Counted from the stretch's first letter, positions 8,570 to 28,424 are shown. The stretch is DNA of 41,301 bases from Bacteroidota bacterium (GCA_024103355.1 JAGFIU010000017.1:1-41301); one strand, 5' to 3'. Notes: generated by a model from the letters alone, not told the origin. Made by a program: numbers and translations.

Positions 8570-8629
8570 AATTTTTGTCATGCTGAGTGATTTGCGGTAG
8601 CAAATCGTATCGAAGCATAGACAAAAATT
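8570..8629. repeat. Repeat A, copy 1 (near-palindrome)
   Basis: Outer arms AATTTTTGTC-ATGCT and AGCAT-AG-ACAAAAATT pair with a one-base bulge. An inner stem GATTTGC, loop GGTA, GCAAATC (8589-8606) gives a long cruciform-like structure. It resembles the REP-type GTCATGCTGAG...CGAAGCAT elements that I know to be scattered through Bacteroidota genomes. Confidence 0.85.
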
Positions 8630-8633
8630 CCAG

Positions 8634-8952
8634 ATGCTGAGATGGTTGCGGTAGCAAATCGTATCGAAGCATGGCAAAAATTCTAGATGCTGAGATGGTT
8701 GCGATAGCAAATCGTATCGAAGCATAGACAAAAATTTTGAAAGGGAGTTTGAGCTTCTTCCTCTGCTCGGCATCCTTCGATACATTTTCGCCTTAGGGGC
8801 GAAAACACTCAGGATGACAACTTACGATACGGAAGTCAGGATTTTTGTCATGCTGAGATGGTTGCGATAGCAAATCGTATCGAAGCATAGACAAAAATTA
8901 TAGATGCTGAGATAGTTGCGGTAGCAAATCGTATCGAAGCATAGACAAAAAT
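8634..8952. repeat. Repeat A copies 2-5 and repeat B copies 1-2
   Basis: A copies 2-5 (8634-8682, 8687-8736, 8841-8899, 8904-8952) share ATGCTGAGAT(G/A)GTTGC and GTAGCAAATCGTATCGAAGCAT or one-base variants (GATAGCAA in copies 3 and 4). Their inner stem is shorter than in copy 1 (TTGC/GCAA). B copy 1 (8737-8819) follows A3 directly, and B copy 2 (8954-9034) follows A5. B contains a hairpin with arms CATCCT...AGGATG and TTTTCGCC, loop TTAGG, GGCGAAAA (8771-8816 in copy 1), which is also REP-like. Confidence 0.85.
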
Positions 8953-24006: not shown

Positions 24007-24041
24007 AAAAAAGGGTTCTGAATAATCAGAACCCTTTTTTT
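24007..24041 (+). terminator. Strong intrinsic terminator
   Basis: GGGTTCTGA, loop ATAA, TCAGAACCC (24013-24034) with A residues before and a run of seven T after. It ends the PKD-protein transcript. The A and T runs extend the stem, and it could also work in the other direction. Confidence 0.93.
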
Positions 24042-24070
24042 ATATGCTCTATTTGATACTAAATATAGTT

Positions 24071-24078
24071 TATCTTTG
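24071..24078 (+). promoter_or_regulatory. -7 promoter element of the metal-handling operon
   Basis: TATCTTTG, a full TAnnTTTG match, with TTTG at 24052-24055 (15 bp upstream, shorter than usual). Only 4 nt separate it from the ATG at 24083, so the message should start at the start codon, without a leader. It also rules out the longer frame beginning at 24044. Confidence 0.55.
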
Positions 24079-24082
24079 CAGT

Positions 24083-24550
24083 ATGATTAGAAAAGTATTA
24101 GCCATATTTCTTGCTTTCTTTGTGGTTGGAAGTGTACCCGGCTTTACCCTTTTCATTCATTATTGTAATGGTACAGCATCCCAAATTTCTTTATGGGAAG
24201 AAGCGGATGATTGCAATACTACTCAAGAAGATATTTGCTGTAAGAAAGACATTGAAAAAAGTTGTTGCATACCCTCTAAGCAAAGTAAACAATACGATGT
24301 TTGTGACATTTCTCACTCAGATTGTTGCCAAACACAGATTGTAAAAACAAACAACCTTAAACTCCTTTCTTTTAGACCTGATACAAAACTTCAAAAAGTG
24401 AGTATGGAGTTTGACATCAAATTAAATTTACTCCATTTACCTGAGGTTTTCAAAGATATTTCAGTTTATAGGTTCGACTTGGCTTCCAAGTCCCCTTTAA
24501 AGATATCGGGAAAAAATATTTGTATCTCAGACTGTCTATTCCTTATTTGA
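24083..24550 (+). CDS. HYC_CC_PP-like cysteine-rich exported protein
   Basis: 155 residues from the ATG at 24083. An N-terminal hydrophobic segment (residues 5-25) is followed directly by H26-Y27-C28, then C44 and three CC pairs (C52-C53, C61-C62, C81-C82) plus C74, within 40 residues rich in Asp, Ser and Lys. The rest has alternating hydrophobic residues without a fold I recognise. The H-Y-C plus CC pattern fits the family that annotation pipelines call HYC_CC_PP, found in Bacteroidota next to TonB-dependent receptors; no clear PP pair is seen here. The cysteines suggest binding of a soft metal, perhaps copper, in the periplasm. First gene of a three-gene operon with an HMA protein and a receptor. 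Confidence 0.72.
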   Translation: MIRKVLAIFLAFFVVGSVPGFTLFIHYCNGTASQISLWEEADDCNTTQEDICCKKDIEKSCCIPSKQSKQYDVCDISHSDCCQTQIVKTNNLKLLSFRPDTKLQKVSMEFDIKLNLLHLPEVFKDISVYRFDLASKSPLKISGKNICISDCLFLI

Positions 24551-24683
24551 TTTAATTATCTTTTTGATTTGTATTCCTAATATTTTTAGGTACTAGGGGA
24601 AACTGCGTATTTAACACTTTTTAACCATTTCCCTTAATAATCATCGCAAAAGGTAAGGTCCCAAGAATTAAAATCTAAAAAAA

Positions 24684-25067
24684 ATGAGAAACATATTTTT
24701 AAAATCAATATTTATGATGTCTATAGGCTTATTTATAATATCTATAATGACATCTGCACAACAAATCACCAAAAACAAAGATAAAAAGATAATTACAGAA
24801 ACCTTTAAAGTTGATGGGTGTTGTAGCGATTGCAAAGACAGAATAGAAGCTGCTCTTGATGTTAAAGGCATTCGATATGCCAGTTGGGAAACAAAAACCC
24901 ATATTTTAACTGTTACTTTTAATACAAAAAAAATAAACATTCAAGACATTCATAATCGAATTGCTGCGGTGGGGCACGACACCGAACTTGTAAAAGCAGT
25001 TGATAGTGTTTATAATACTTTACCCGAATGTTGCCAATACAGAGGAGGTAGTGAATGCAGTCACTAA
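24684..25067 (+). CDS. Exported HMA-domain protein (putative periplasmic metal chaperone)
   Basis: 127 residues. A hydrophobic signal ends at about S-A-Q-Q (24-27). Residues about 36-105 form a heavy-metal-associated ferredoxin-like fold: F-K-V-D-G-C46-C47-S-D-C50-K-D-R-I replaces the usual G-M-T-C-x-x-C, so the metal loop has three cysteines; later V-T-F-N and A-A-V-G-H-D-T match the family. A short tail adds C116-C117 and a final C125-S-H127. HMA domains usually carry Cu(I) or other soft or divalent metals; an exported one would pass metal in the periplasm. The receptor gene starts 13 bp before this stop codon, so translation is coupled. The 133 bp after the preceding gene show no promoter or terminator I trust. 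Confidence 0.85.
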   Translation: MRNIFLKSIFMMSIGLFIISIMTSAQQITKNKDKKIITETFKVDGCCSDCKDRIEAALDVKGIRYASWETKTHILTVTFNTKKINIQDIHNRIAAVGHDTELVKAVDSVYNTLPECCQYRGGSECSH

Positions 25068-27328
25068 GAATTGCACTATTCATATTGTTGCTTACCCTTT
25101 CACAAGTAGTAAATGGTCAAATACTTAATGGGATTGTAAGGAGTGAGTCAGAGCCCTTAGAAGCTGCCTATATTTATTGGAAGAGTTTTGTATTAACAAA
25201 TACTCAGTCAGACTCAGCGGGACATTTTACAATTAATAAAATTCCCAATCAAGATACGCTCATAGTTACCATGGTTGGTTATGAACCTACAGAAATCATC
25301 ATCTCAAAGGAGCAAAATTTTACAGAAATAGTATTAAAACCTTCGACCGTACTCAAAACTGTAAATATAGGTGATGTCAAAGCTCCTAAAATACTTAGTA
25401 AGAAAGATGTCAGACATATTTCACGTTTTTCTGAAAGAGAATTCACCAAAGCGGCTTGTTGCAACCTCTCGGAAAGCTTTGAAACTATTTCTGCAGTCGA
25501 TGTTACTACATCAGATGCTGTTACCGGAATTAGACAAATACAAATGATGGGGTTTTCAGGAATCTATGTCCAAACGCAAGTTGACAATATGCCTTTTGCA
25601 AGCGGTTTAATCGCTTCCAGCGGACTCACTTATATTCCAGGAATATTTGTAAAAGGAATGCAATTAGCAAAAGGTGTCGGGTCTGTAACCAATGGATATG
25701 ACGGGATGACAGGCTCACTCAATATTGAACTGAGAAAGCCTACTCATAAAGAAAGATTAATCATAAACGGATATTTTAACCCAATGAACCTAAGACCGGA
25801 AGGCAACATTGTATTTTCGCAACAAGTATCAAAAAACTGGGCAACTACCGCAATGCTGCATGGTTCAGGTACCTATGCAAAAGCCGATATTAATAATGAC
25901 GGATTTCAGGATTTTCCGCTCCAAAACAATCTCAATTTCAGTAACGCATGGATGTATATGAAAAATAATTGGGAAGGAAATATAGGGGTCAAATATCTCA
26001 ATTATGCTCAAAAATTGGGTATAAACGATTTAAATAAAACTCAAAACATTGACTGGCAAAGTTCTACAAAGAATGAAAGAATTGAAGTTGAGGCTATGTT
26101 GGGTCATATTTTCGAAGACCACAAACATGATAAAGATGAGCATGCAAATGAGCATGCGAATAATTCCATGGGGTTCAGGGTTAATAGTCATTCTCACACT
26201 ATCTCTAATTATTTTGGCGGAAGAAAATATGATGCAAATGAGAAGGTTATGAATCTAAAATGGGTTTTTCAAGGACTTGCCGGAAACTCTTTTCATCAAT
26301 ATATGGTTGGAGCTACACTCTATGGAAATCAGATCGGAGAGCTATTTTCAGACAATGAACATAACCTGAACCTAAGCCGAAACGAATGGATACCGGGCGT
26401 GTTTTTTGAATGGACAGAATCAGGAATCAAAAACCTTACTTTAGTGGGAGGTATTCGCTATGATTATCACAACTATTTCGGCTCAATCATCACACCGAGA
26501 TTACATGGCAAATGGACAATAGACAAGAAAAATGAAATCAGATTTGGTGGCGGTAGAGGTCAACGCACATCCAACCCTTTTGCTGATTATCAAGGTATTT
26601 TCAGTTCCGGAAGAAAAGTCATTTTGCCGGTCAAAGTAAATAATGGTTTTTATGGTTTACAACAAGAAGTATCATGGAACACAGGATTCTCTTATATCAA
26701 AAATTTCAAGTTATTCTATAGGCCTGCAAGTCTCGAAGCTGATTATTATTATACTTGGTTTGATGAACAACTCCAAGTGGACCGAGACTTCAAATCTTCT
26801 GAATTAAGATTCTATAATATCTCCGCATTGGGATTAAAATCATATTCTCATTCTGCAAGCATTGGATTAGATTTTTCTCCGGCAAAAAGGTTTGATGTAC
26901 GTATGTCCTATCGTTTTATTGACTCCCGCAGTGGTTATATCGATGGAACAACACGACTAAATCCTCTGATTTCACCTCATAGAGCATTTGTTAATGTGTC
27001 TTATGAAAATCGTAAGGGATGGGTTTATGATGCAACGGTCAATTGGCAAAGTGAAAAGAGATTACCCCAAGGTGCCTCCTTGCCTGAAGAACTAAAAGAT
27101 ATGCCTGCATATAGCCCTTCTTACACAGGAATTATGGCTCAGATTACAAAGAAATTTAACAAACAGTTTGAAGCATATATTGGTGGAGAAAATTTGCTGA
27201 ATATTGTTCAAAAGGATTTGATACGAATGGCATCTAATCCCTCAAGCCCATACTTTGACCCAACATTGGTTTGGGGCCCTTCACTTGGCATAACATTTTA
27301 TGCCGGGTTCAGATATTATATTTGGTAG
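25055..27328 (+). CDS. TonB-dependent receptor with Cys-Cys plug motif and His-rich loop
   Basis: 757 residues. Signal peptide 1-21 (V-V-N-G-Q), CarboxypepD_reg-like domain (about 22-97), plug domain (about 115-235) and a 22-strand type barrel with aromatic C terminus (F-R-Y-Y-I-W). The plug has C135-C136-N-L-S-E-S-F-E and D-A-V-T-G-I-R-Q-I-Q-M-M-G, a pattern I associate with Bacteroidota receptors linked to HMA proteins. An exposed segment at about 350-388 is rich in His and Asp (D-H-K-H-D-K-D-E-H, then H-S-H), suited to catching metal ions. With the two upstream cysteine-rich proteins this points to metal uptake, most likely copper, but the substrate is inferred. There is no classical terminator after it; the palindromic repeat block follows. 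Confidence 0.87.
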   Translation: MQSLRIALFILLLTLSQVVNGQILNGIVRSESEPLEAAYIYWKSFVLTNTQSDSAGHFTINKIPNQDTLIVTMVGYEPTEIIISKEQNFTEIVLKPSTVLKTVNIGDVKAPKILSKKDVRHISRFSEREFTKAACCNLSESFETISAVDVTTSDAVTGIRQIQMMGFSGIYVQTQVDNMPFASGLIASSGLTYIPGIFVKGMQLAKGVGSVTNGYDGMTGSLNIELRKPTHKERLIINGYFNPMNLRPEGNIVFSQQVSKNWATTAMLHGSGTYAKADINNDGFQDFPLQNNLNFSNAWMYMKNNWEGNIGVKYLNYAQKLGINDLNKTQNIDWQSSTKNERIEVEAMLGHIFEDHKHDKDEHANEHANNSMGFRVNSHSHTISNYFGGRKYDANEKVMNLKWVFQGLAGNSFHQYMVGATLYGNQIGELFSDNEHNLNLSRNEWIPGVFFEWTESGIKNLTLVGGIRYDYHNYFGSIITPRLHGKWTIDKKNEIRFGGGRGQRTSNPFADYQGIFSSGRKVILPVKVNNGFYGLQQEVSWNTGFSYIKNFKLFYRPASLEADYYYTWFDEQLQVDRDFKSSELRFYNISALGLKSYSHSASIGLDFSPAKRFDVRMSYRFIDSRSGYIDGTTRLNPLISPHRAFVNVSYENRKGWVYDATVNWQSEKRLPQGASLPEELKDMPAYSPSYTGIMAQITKKFNKQFEAYIGGENLLNIVQKDLIRMASNPSSPYFDPTLVWGPSLGITFYAGFRYYIW

Positions 27329-27644
27329 AAAGCAACTTGCAAATCAAACTACCTACCAACCACCTCACCCCAACCCTACCACACCTCACCCCAACCCCTC
27401 TCCTCAAGGAGAGGGGCTTCTATCGCACATGGAATTTGTGTAAAAGAGGAAGGACTGCTTAACCGAATAAATTTTTGTCATGCTGAGTGATTTGCGGTAG
27501 CAAATCGTATCGAAGCATGTCAAAAATTCTAGATGCTGAGATGGTTGCGGTAGCAAATCGTATCGAAGCATAGACAAAAATTTTGAAAGGGAGTTTGAGC
27601 TTCTTCCTCTGCTCGGCATCCTCCGATACATTTTTTATTGAATA
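27329..27644. repeat. Second palindromic repeat block between convergent genes
   Basis: 316 bp between the stop codons of the TonB-dependent receptor and the binding protein. It starts with CACCTCACCCCAACCC twice, then the same perfect hairpin as at 8461 (here 27395-27416). A diverged copy of the second hairpin follows, then repeat A twice (27470-27528 and 27533-27582) and a truncated repeat B (27584-27634). The B copy stops after CGATACATTTT and lacks its right half; the 3' end of the binding-protein gene begins there. No gene is present. Confidence 0.93.
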
Positions 27645-28424
27645 TCAAAGCAATTTGTTTATTTCCCTAAAGTAACGCGGAGAGAATTGCAATCTGCTAC
27701 CATACCAAGTAAACATTTCACCATCTACAAAAAGAATTTTTGAATGTCTAAAAATAGCTTCAAACTCCGGTCTGTGTTTTTCTTTAAATGGATATGGTTC
27801 GGAGGACAAAAGTACAAATTCCGGATTTAGCTCACGCATCTGCTCTATTTCCAAAATAGGATATCTATCCATTGTTGCACACACATTGTCAAAGCCTGCT
27901 AAACCAAGCATATCATGAATAAACGTATTACCTCCTACTGCCATATATGGTTTCTTCCAAATCATATAAATGCACGAATGTTTTTTCTCGAATGATAATT
28001 GCTCAAATTCATTTATAATCCTCCGGTTCAAATGATTAGCTTGCTTATCCTTTTGGCAAATTTTTCCTATTGTACTAATCATTTCACAAGCAGTTTCCAG
28101 ATTGTGAATATCACTAATCCAAACCTGATAGTGTTTTGCAAGTTCCTCAATTTCTTCTTTAATATTTTCCTCTTTGTTTGCTATTATCAAGTCGGGTTTA
28201 AGCAGGTGAATGGCTGCAAGGTTTAGTTTCTTGGGGCCTCCCACTTTGTGGGCTGTGTTGAATTTGTCTTTTGGATGGATACAAAAAATTGTTTGCCCCA
28301 CAACCCGCTCCCCACAACCAATTTCGTACAACAGCTCTGTTTGAGATGGTACCAAAGAAACTATCCTTTTCGGAGGCAGGTTTATCTCAACATTTCTCCC
28401 TAATTGGTCAACTACAATTGTCAT
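27645..28424 (-). CDS. BtuF/helical-backbone substrate-binding-type protein without a signal peptide
   Basis: 259 residues of the class III periplasmic binding-protein fold (Peripla_BP_2): D-Q-L-G-R-N-V-E-I at the start, P-K-R-I-V-S-L-V-P-S-Q-T-E-L-L-Y, a mid-protein K-P-D-L-I-I-A-N-K-E-E-N and a second lobe with E-F-V-L-L-S-S-E-P-Y. This matches cobalamin/haem-type binding proteins. Yet the chain begins M-T-I-V-V-D, with no hydrophobic signal or lipobox, and the start is well fixed by a promoter 4 nt upstream. No permease or ATPase gene is next to it. Either it works in the cytosol, or partner and export are unusual. A corrinoid link is possible: a PduO adenosyltransferase gene lies 11 kb away. 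Confidence 0.8.
   Translation of the reverse strand: MTIVVDQLGRNVEINLPPKRIVSLVPSQTELLYEIGCGERVVGQTIFCIHPKDKFNTAHKVGGPKKLNLAAIHLLKPDLIIANKEENIKEEIEELAKHYQVWISDIHNLETACEMISTIGKICQKDKQANHLNRRIINEFEQLSFEKKHSCIYMIWKKPYMAVGGNTFIHDMLGLAGFDNVCATMDRYPILEIEQMRELNPEFVLLSSEPYPFKEKHRPEFEAIFRHSKILFVDGEMFTWYGSRLQFSPRYFREINKLL

Follow-up and report, generated by a model that had tools for sequence, protein, structure and literature searches.

One of the closest described counterparts of the locus analyzed here is the CruR–BfrG(CrtA)–BP2921 operon of Bordetella pertussis, which begins with a short exported ORF carrying Cys and Pro-Pro motifs, followed by a long gap and the gene of a copper TonB-dependent transporter (PMC9426467, PMC12914433). 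The CutF–CutO–CutG operon of Rhodobacter capsulatus is built in a similar way: CutF is an exported sensor that acts as a nascent chain, relying on its Cys motif and Pro-rich end as well as on a stem-loop in the following gap, and CutF-type leaders also precede CusABC-type and TonB genes (PMC9973294). A TonB-dependent copper importer has been described in OprC/NosA, whose plug Cys is essential for Cu(II) binding (PMC8610252), and the MbnP and MbnH proteins are found in operons for methanobactin, a copper chelator (PMC3621798).

The locus of a Bacteroidota bacterium (GCA_024103355.1 JAGFIU010000017.1) studied here occupies positions 24083–27328 (+) of the window, which is the whole stretch of 41,301 nucleotides that was analyzed. 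Its three co-directional ORFs encode a protein of the HYC_CC_PP family (HYC), a protein with an HMA domain, and a TonB-dependent receptor of a family with a KAACC motif in the plug. The ORF order and long gap recall CruR, and an exported Cys/Pro protein with a structured gap behind it, as seen across the HYC family, recalls CutF; by analogy, these likenesses argue for HYC working as CruR and CutF do. The systems also differ. CruR belongs to DUF2946 and has a CXXC motif, 45 residues, and RAPP three residues before its end, and a PepSY_TM protein stands in its operon where the HMA protein stands here. CutF is likewise a DUF2946 protein and controls a multicopper oxidase. CrtA has no conserved Cys and an invariant His in its ligand site, whereas the KAACC receptors have no invariant His column. 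The OprC/NosA site is CxxxM-HxM, in contrast to a CC pair without a Met four residues on, and relative to the MbnT/MbnP/MbnH systems (PMC3621798), HMA and HYC genes are added. Published lists of CutF-like proteins include some Bacteroidota and may already hold HYC proteins. A literature search, with subscription papers and preprints outside its range, found no paper on HYC_CC_PP, on the KAACC motif of a receptor, or on any Bacteroidota copper receptor.

We propose, with a probability of about 0.5, that the locus is a copper-acquisition operon with a built-in leader ORF; what we infer are copper as the substrate, the function of the CC pair, and the sensing and stalling steps. The leader role for HYC_CC_PP is newly proposed here and would be the most interesting part of the finding.

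Operon layout and recurrence in Bacteroidota

The three ORFs and the features assigned to them are listed in Table 1. The unit described in the first-pass annotation was recovered as such, with all three ORFs in place, a terminator and a TAnnTTTG box at its start, and a 13-nt overlap (25055–25067) between the HMA and receptor genes. The terminator is a perfect 14-bp hairpin with a T-run (−18.7 kcal/mol, z −5.76). The position of the TATCTTTG box suggests a leaderless or very-short-leader mRNA for HYC, and the TAnnTTTG motif is absent from the HYC–HMA gap of the window (24551–24683). The TTTG further upstream is a weak candidate for a −33 element because its distance to the −7 box, 15 nt, is shorter than usual.

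Table 1. Positions of assigned and proposed features in the window.
Feature	Position	Strand	Basis or conservation
Intrinsic terminator of upstream T9SS/PKD gene, upstream border of unit	24008-24039	+	hairpin
TTTG, possible -33 element	24052-24055	+	sequence only
TATCTTTG, Bacteroidota -7 box (TAnnTTTG)	24071-24078	+	motif; ends 4 nt 5' of HYC ATG
HYC_CC_PP gene, proposed copper-responsive leader ORF	24083-24550	+	NF047658, conservation, spacing, context
C28 codon, HYC motif	24164-24166	+	C in 92/92
C81-C82, conserved CC pair	24323-24328	+	C in 89/92 and 91/92
S137-P138 at family PP position	24491-24496	+	P138 87/92; P at 137 in 77/92
HYC-HMA gap, 133 nt; possible attenuator or RBS-hiding structure	24551-24683	+	family-wide fold signal
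Exported HMA protein, putative periplasmic copper chaperone	24684-25067	+	Pfam HMA, co-occurrence
C46-C-S-D-C50 metal loop; C47, C50 conserved pair	24819-24833	+	C47 99/99, C50 90/99
C116-C117, C-terminal CC	25029-25034	+	conserved 89/99 each
TonB-dependent receptor, KAACC-plug family, putative copper importer	25055-27328	+	Plug, CarbopepD_reg_2, AlphaFold2 model
C135-C136 in plug, motif KAACCNLSESF	25457-25462	+	invariant 33/33
DINNDGFQD, EF-hand-like loop, residues 278-286	25886-25912	+	D278, D282, D286 invariant, 33 receptors
His/Asp-rich predicted outer loop, residues ~348-369	26096-26161	+	genus-specific

The suggestion that the three families occur together was borne out by a neighborhood survey. 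At loci where at least 1300 nt of sequence precede the receptor, an HMA gene is part of the receptor unit in 37/37 loci of the order and 57/72 of the phylum, and a HYC gene lies upstream in 28/37 and 62/72, respectively; most order loci without a HYC match have another small Cys-rich ORF in its place. The two largest clusters of neighbors at 119 other loci were HMA (100 genes, all 100 co-directional) and HYC (68, of which 67 co-directional). Most other recurring neighbors reflect lineage-specific synteny, and none is as widespread as these two. The gene arrangement is far beyond chance, and the HYC, HMA, and receptor genes form one operon, which is real and widespread in Bacteroidota. Homologs lying apart and unconserved cysteines, two of the three outcomes named earlier as refuting, were both looked for and neither was seen.

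At three loci (L118, L123, and L142), a small protein with two copies of the heavy-metal-binding domain is encoded directly 5′ of the receptor; no HMA gene was found at L118 and L123.

The receptor and its HMA partner

The receptor (757 aa) matches Pfam Plug with 24.6 bits (cut-off 23.9) and also CarbopepD_reg_2. Its AlphaFold2 model (pLDDT 83.8) has the Plug domain and 22-strand barrel by which TonB-dependent receptors are recognized, and residues 107–756 align with Z scores of 31–38 to receptors of solved structure, among them BtuB, Cir, and OprC. When the model was compared with viral structures, all matches were generic ones, to TonB-type proteins or barrels.

An alignment of 33 receptors gave the plug consensus E-F/L-x-K-A-A-C-C-x-L-S/A-E/G-S/C-F, in which the Cys-Cys pair pointed out in the first-pass annotation proved invariant. 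The residues four positions after C135 and C136 are S and E in the window's receptor, and none of the aligned sequences has a Met there. The ACCxL motif is present in 119/119 loci, 80 of which, from the phylum, had been selected by this very motif. Relatives of the receptor were found at E 1e-30 in 65/78 genomes of the order. A DNA pattern for the plug motif hit 93/139 class genomes and 40/198 genomes of a phylum-wide sample, in which its reversed version, used as a control, gave a single match. Scanning named genomes yielded at least 591 receptor relatives; among the 80 matches listed, nearly all are from Bacteroidota.

Vicinal cysteines can also form a disulfide, and the plug is modeled with a pLDDT of only about 60–80, both of which leave room for a structural or redox disulfide in place of a metal site. 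We regard this as unlikely given the invariance of the pair beside HMA and Cys-rich partners in a copper context, and the copper-binding service of the plug Cys in OprC (PMC8610252).

Two further segments of the receptor were considered. The EF-hand-like DxNxDGxxD loop is a possible calcium-binding site within an outer loop. The His/Asp-rich outer segment, earlier thought to capture metal, is confined to 2/33 sequences, those of the window's receptor (P0003) and of L034, both from this genus, and was dropped as a general capture site because it is genus-specific.

The HMA protein (127 aa) matches Pfam HMA (PF00403) with 26.6 bits (cut-off 24.8), its CxxC being C47-S-D-C50. All cysteines reported for it (G45-C-C-S-D-C50, C116C117, and C125) are present. 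Across 99 sequences, conservation is restricted to C47/C50 and C116/C117; C46 and C125 are not conserved. Two other HMA proteins are encoded in the window's own genome.

Genomic context and the likely metal

Pointers to a metal come from other genes near the receptor. In one family of the order (f2), relatives of MbnP and MbnH are part of the receptor unit (Pfam MbnP, 1.9e-29; MbnH as best NCBIfam match, 1.2e-64, below its cut-off), as in methanobactin systems, where a TonB-dependent transporter adjoins the same pair (PMC3621798). The MbnP/MbnH units of L036, L038, and L041 additionally encode a membrane protein with MauE and HMA domains 3′ of the receptor, profile-checked in L038. Receptor neighbors elsewhere include proteins with the heavy-metal-binding domain PF19335, DUF3347, a Csp-like DUF326 protein, an ArsP-type permease, and AraC regulators with the Cys motif NMVCxRC (AraC-HMA). 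Metal markers share the receptor's strand in 17/119 loci; the opposite strand carries them in 1. MbnP and MbnH adjoin the receptor in few lineages and are absent from the operon in the window; three MbnP genes are present elsewhere in the same genome, as are five COX1 matches (PF00115). MbnP reportedly binds copper, according to later biochemical work.

On the basis of the MbnP/MbnH, heavy-metal-binding, AraC-HMA, and Csp-like neighbors, copper is therefore the likeliest metal, in agreement with the earlier guess, and the operon probably serves copper uptake. That the operon handles a soft metal other than copper (zinc, mercury, silver, or cadmium) or has a role in defense instead of uptake, in which case the receptor would take in a metal chelate, seems quite improbable. 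Several soft metals are bound by HMA domains and CC pairs, the best NCBIfam match of the HMA protein is MerTP (below cut-off), and efflux-type genes are among some neighbors; yet the MbnP/MbnH, Csp-like, and RND neighbors indicate copper, and import is the role of TonB-dependent receptors.

Co-occurrence with heme-copper oxidases (PF00115) was tried as a copper test and was uninformative because 135/139 genomes have such an oxidase; the plug motif is carried by 3/4 genomes that lack one.

HYC_CC_PP as a candidate leader ORF

The HYC protein (155 aa) matches NF047658 HYC_CC_PP, an NCBIfam name that refers to motifs only, with 45.2 bits (cut-off 28). It contains H26-Y-C28 and, as the first-pass annotation had noted, three CC pairs (C52C53, C61C62, and C81C82). 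Comparison of 92 sequences revealed conservation of C28, C52, C81, C82, and a C-terminal PP, at which the window's own protein has SP; the middle pair (C61C62) is not conserved. The spacing between the CC pair and P138 is nearly fixed at 55 residues (53–58 in 74/86 proteins) across a poorly conserved stretch, and could instead stem from a small folded domain. The distance from C28 to C82 varies between 26 and 60. The PP mostly lies 10–19 residues before the stop, and the tail behind it has a conserved hydrophobic pattern. Homology to DUF2946 (PF11162) was rejected, as 0/49 HYC proteins match it at E 1; it also scores over its cut-off in 0/78 genomes of the order.

HYC genes also occur away from the receptor. 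Of 20 such genes, most stand first in units that encode RND pumps, MbnP/MbnH, heavy-metal-binding proteins, or HMA ATPases; the pumps and heavy-metal-binding proteins in these units were assigned from sequence features. A TAnnTTTG box precedes 67% of HYC genes (n = 118), compared with 24% among other genes preceded by a gap of at least 60 nt; it ends at −10 to −3 in 37% and 5%, respectively, and occurs in 2% of the gaps behind HYC. Against the leader reading, 11/119 HYC genes have a co-directional gene less than 50 nt upstream. By motif and position, the HYC gene is predicted to have its own promoter and to be the first ORF of putative copper operons.

A long gap follows HYC (median 77 nt in receptor units, 100 nt elsewhere), compared with 11 and 1 nt between later genes (p 2e-28). 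It folds more stably relative to shuffled sequences (mean z −2.42) than other co-directional gaps (−1.17; p 4e-10) or divergent ones (−0.02). Both p values ignore kinship and are optimistic because the loci are related by descent, which overstates their independence. The gap in the window itself, with a non-significant fold z of about −0.8, counts against the leader reading, as do the SP in the window's HYC and, in the family, a PP that mostly lies farther from the stop than the three residues seen in CruR. An intrinsic terminator as the switch was rejected: The T-run is missing from most HYC gaps, and terminators are predicted in 15% of them, similar to 12% of other co-directional gaps.

A second class of candidate leader was found at nine loci without a HYC match (L063, L065–L072), in which another protein forms the first ORF, with a gap and promoter layout like that of HYC. 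In 8/9 of these proteins, a Cys motif is followed by 39–40 residues, PP, and 2–6 residues to the stop, whereas the spacing in the ninth depends on which Cys motif is counted; most end in WQPPK or similar. Eight loci belong to family f1, mostly to one genus, and one to family f2.

Serial hand-over of metal by all three proteins, as first envisaged, is not supported because HYC also heads copper-efflux and MbnP/MbnH units without this receptor. Within the same copper-import operon, HYC might still be a stable periplasmic copper-binding accessory (a chaperone or buffer) that acts in trans and serves importers as well as exporters. Its N-terminal export sequence, its many cysteines, and its constancy as a partner are compatible with such a function, as are its place in efflux operons and the conserved hydrophobic tail, and a chaperone was the first conjecture for CutF, as cited in a passage of PMC9426467. 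An accessory would, however, leave unexplained the gap, its structure, and the promoter pattern, as well as the first place in unlike operons and the swap for a Cys-40-PP ORF. AlphaFold2 gave no confident fold for HYC either (pLDDT 61.7), though from a shallow alignment, and the model was not interpreted because of its low confidence. We consider an accessory role fairly unlikely. A leader or regulator role fits better than that of a carrier for the receptor because HYC heads efflux and MbnP/MbnH units that lack this receptor and, across the family, has its own putative promoter, a long structured gap behind it, and a nearly fixed Cys–Pro spacing; we lean slightly towards HYC_CC_PP being a regulatory leader ORF.

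In the proposed copper-acquisition operon, a single promoter directly 5′ of the first ATG would transcribe the HYC, HMA, and receptor genes jointly. The receptor would bring copper, free or chelated, across the outer membrane using TonB energy, with the plug Cys-Cys pair as a transient Cu(I) site during passage, and the exported HMA protein would receive it in the periplasm. HYC would be a cis-acting sensor and no carrier: Its Cys motif would sense copper during translation and export, and the Pro-Pro region, at a nearly fixed 55 residues past the Cys, would together with the structured gap set downstream expression, as in CruR and CutF. More tentatively, at somewhat less than even odds, HYC_CC_PP and the second family may both be copper-sensing nascent-chain regulators that are independent of DUF2946, act on near-leaderless mRNAs, and control import and efflux phylum-wide, including new CC-plug copper importers. 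If true, this would name a widespread importer family, its motif being present in about two thirds of the sampled class genomes, for the poorly known copper uptake of Bacteroidota, as well as the periplasmic partner of the importer, and would assign a function to HYC_CC_PP, so far a motif name. It would also suggest that nascent exported Cys/Pro-Pro proteins came to regulate copper genes on more than one occasion in evolution.

Further downstream in the window, a convergent gene at 27645–28424 (−) encodes a metal receptor of the TroA-like helical-backbone type with no evident signal peptide. Tandem copies of a repeat of about 53 nt containing GCGGTAGCAAATCGTATCGAAGCAT are located at 27480–27585 and also at 8594–8942 of the window; allowing up to three mismatches, the genome has 11 copies, which lie on this contig and contig C15.
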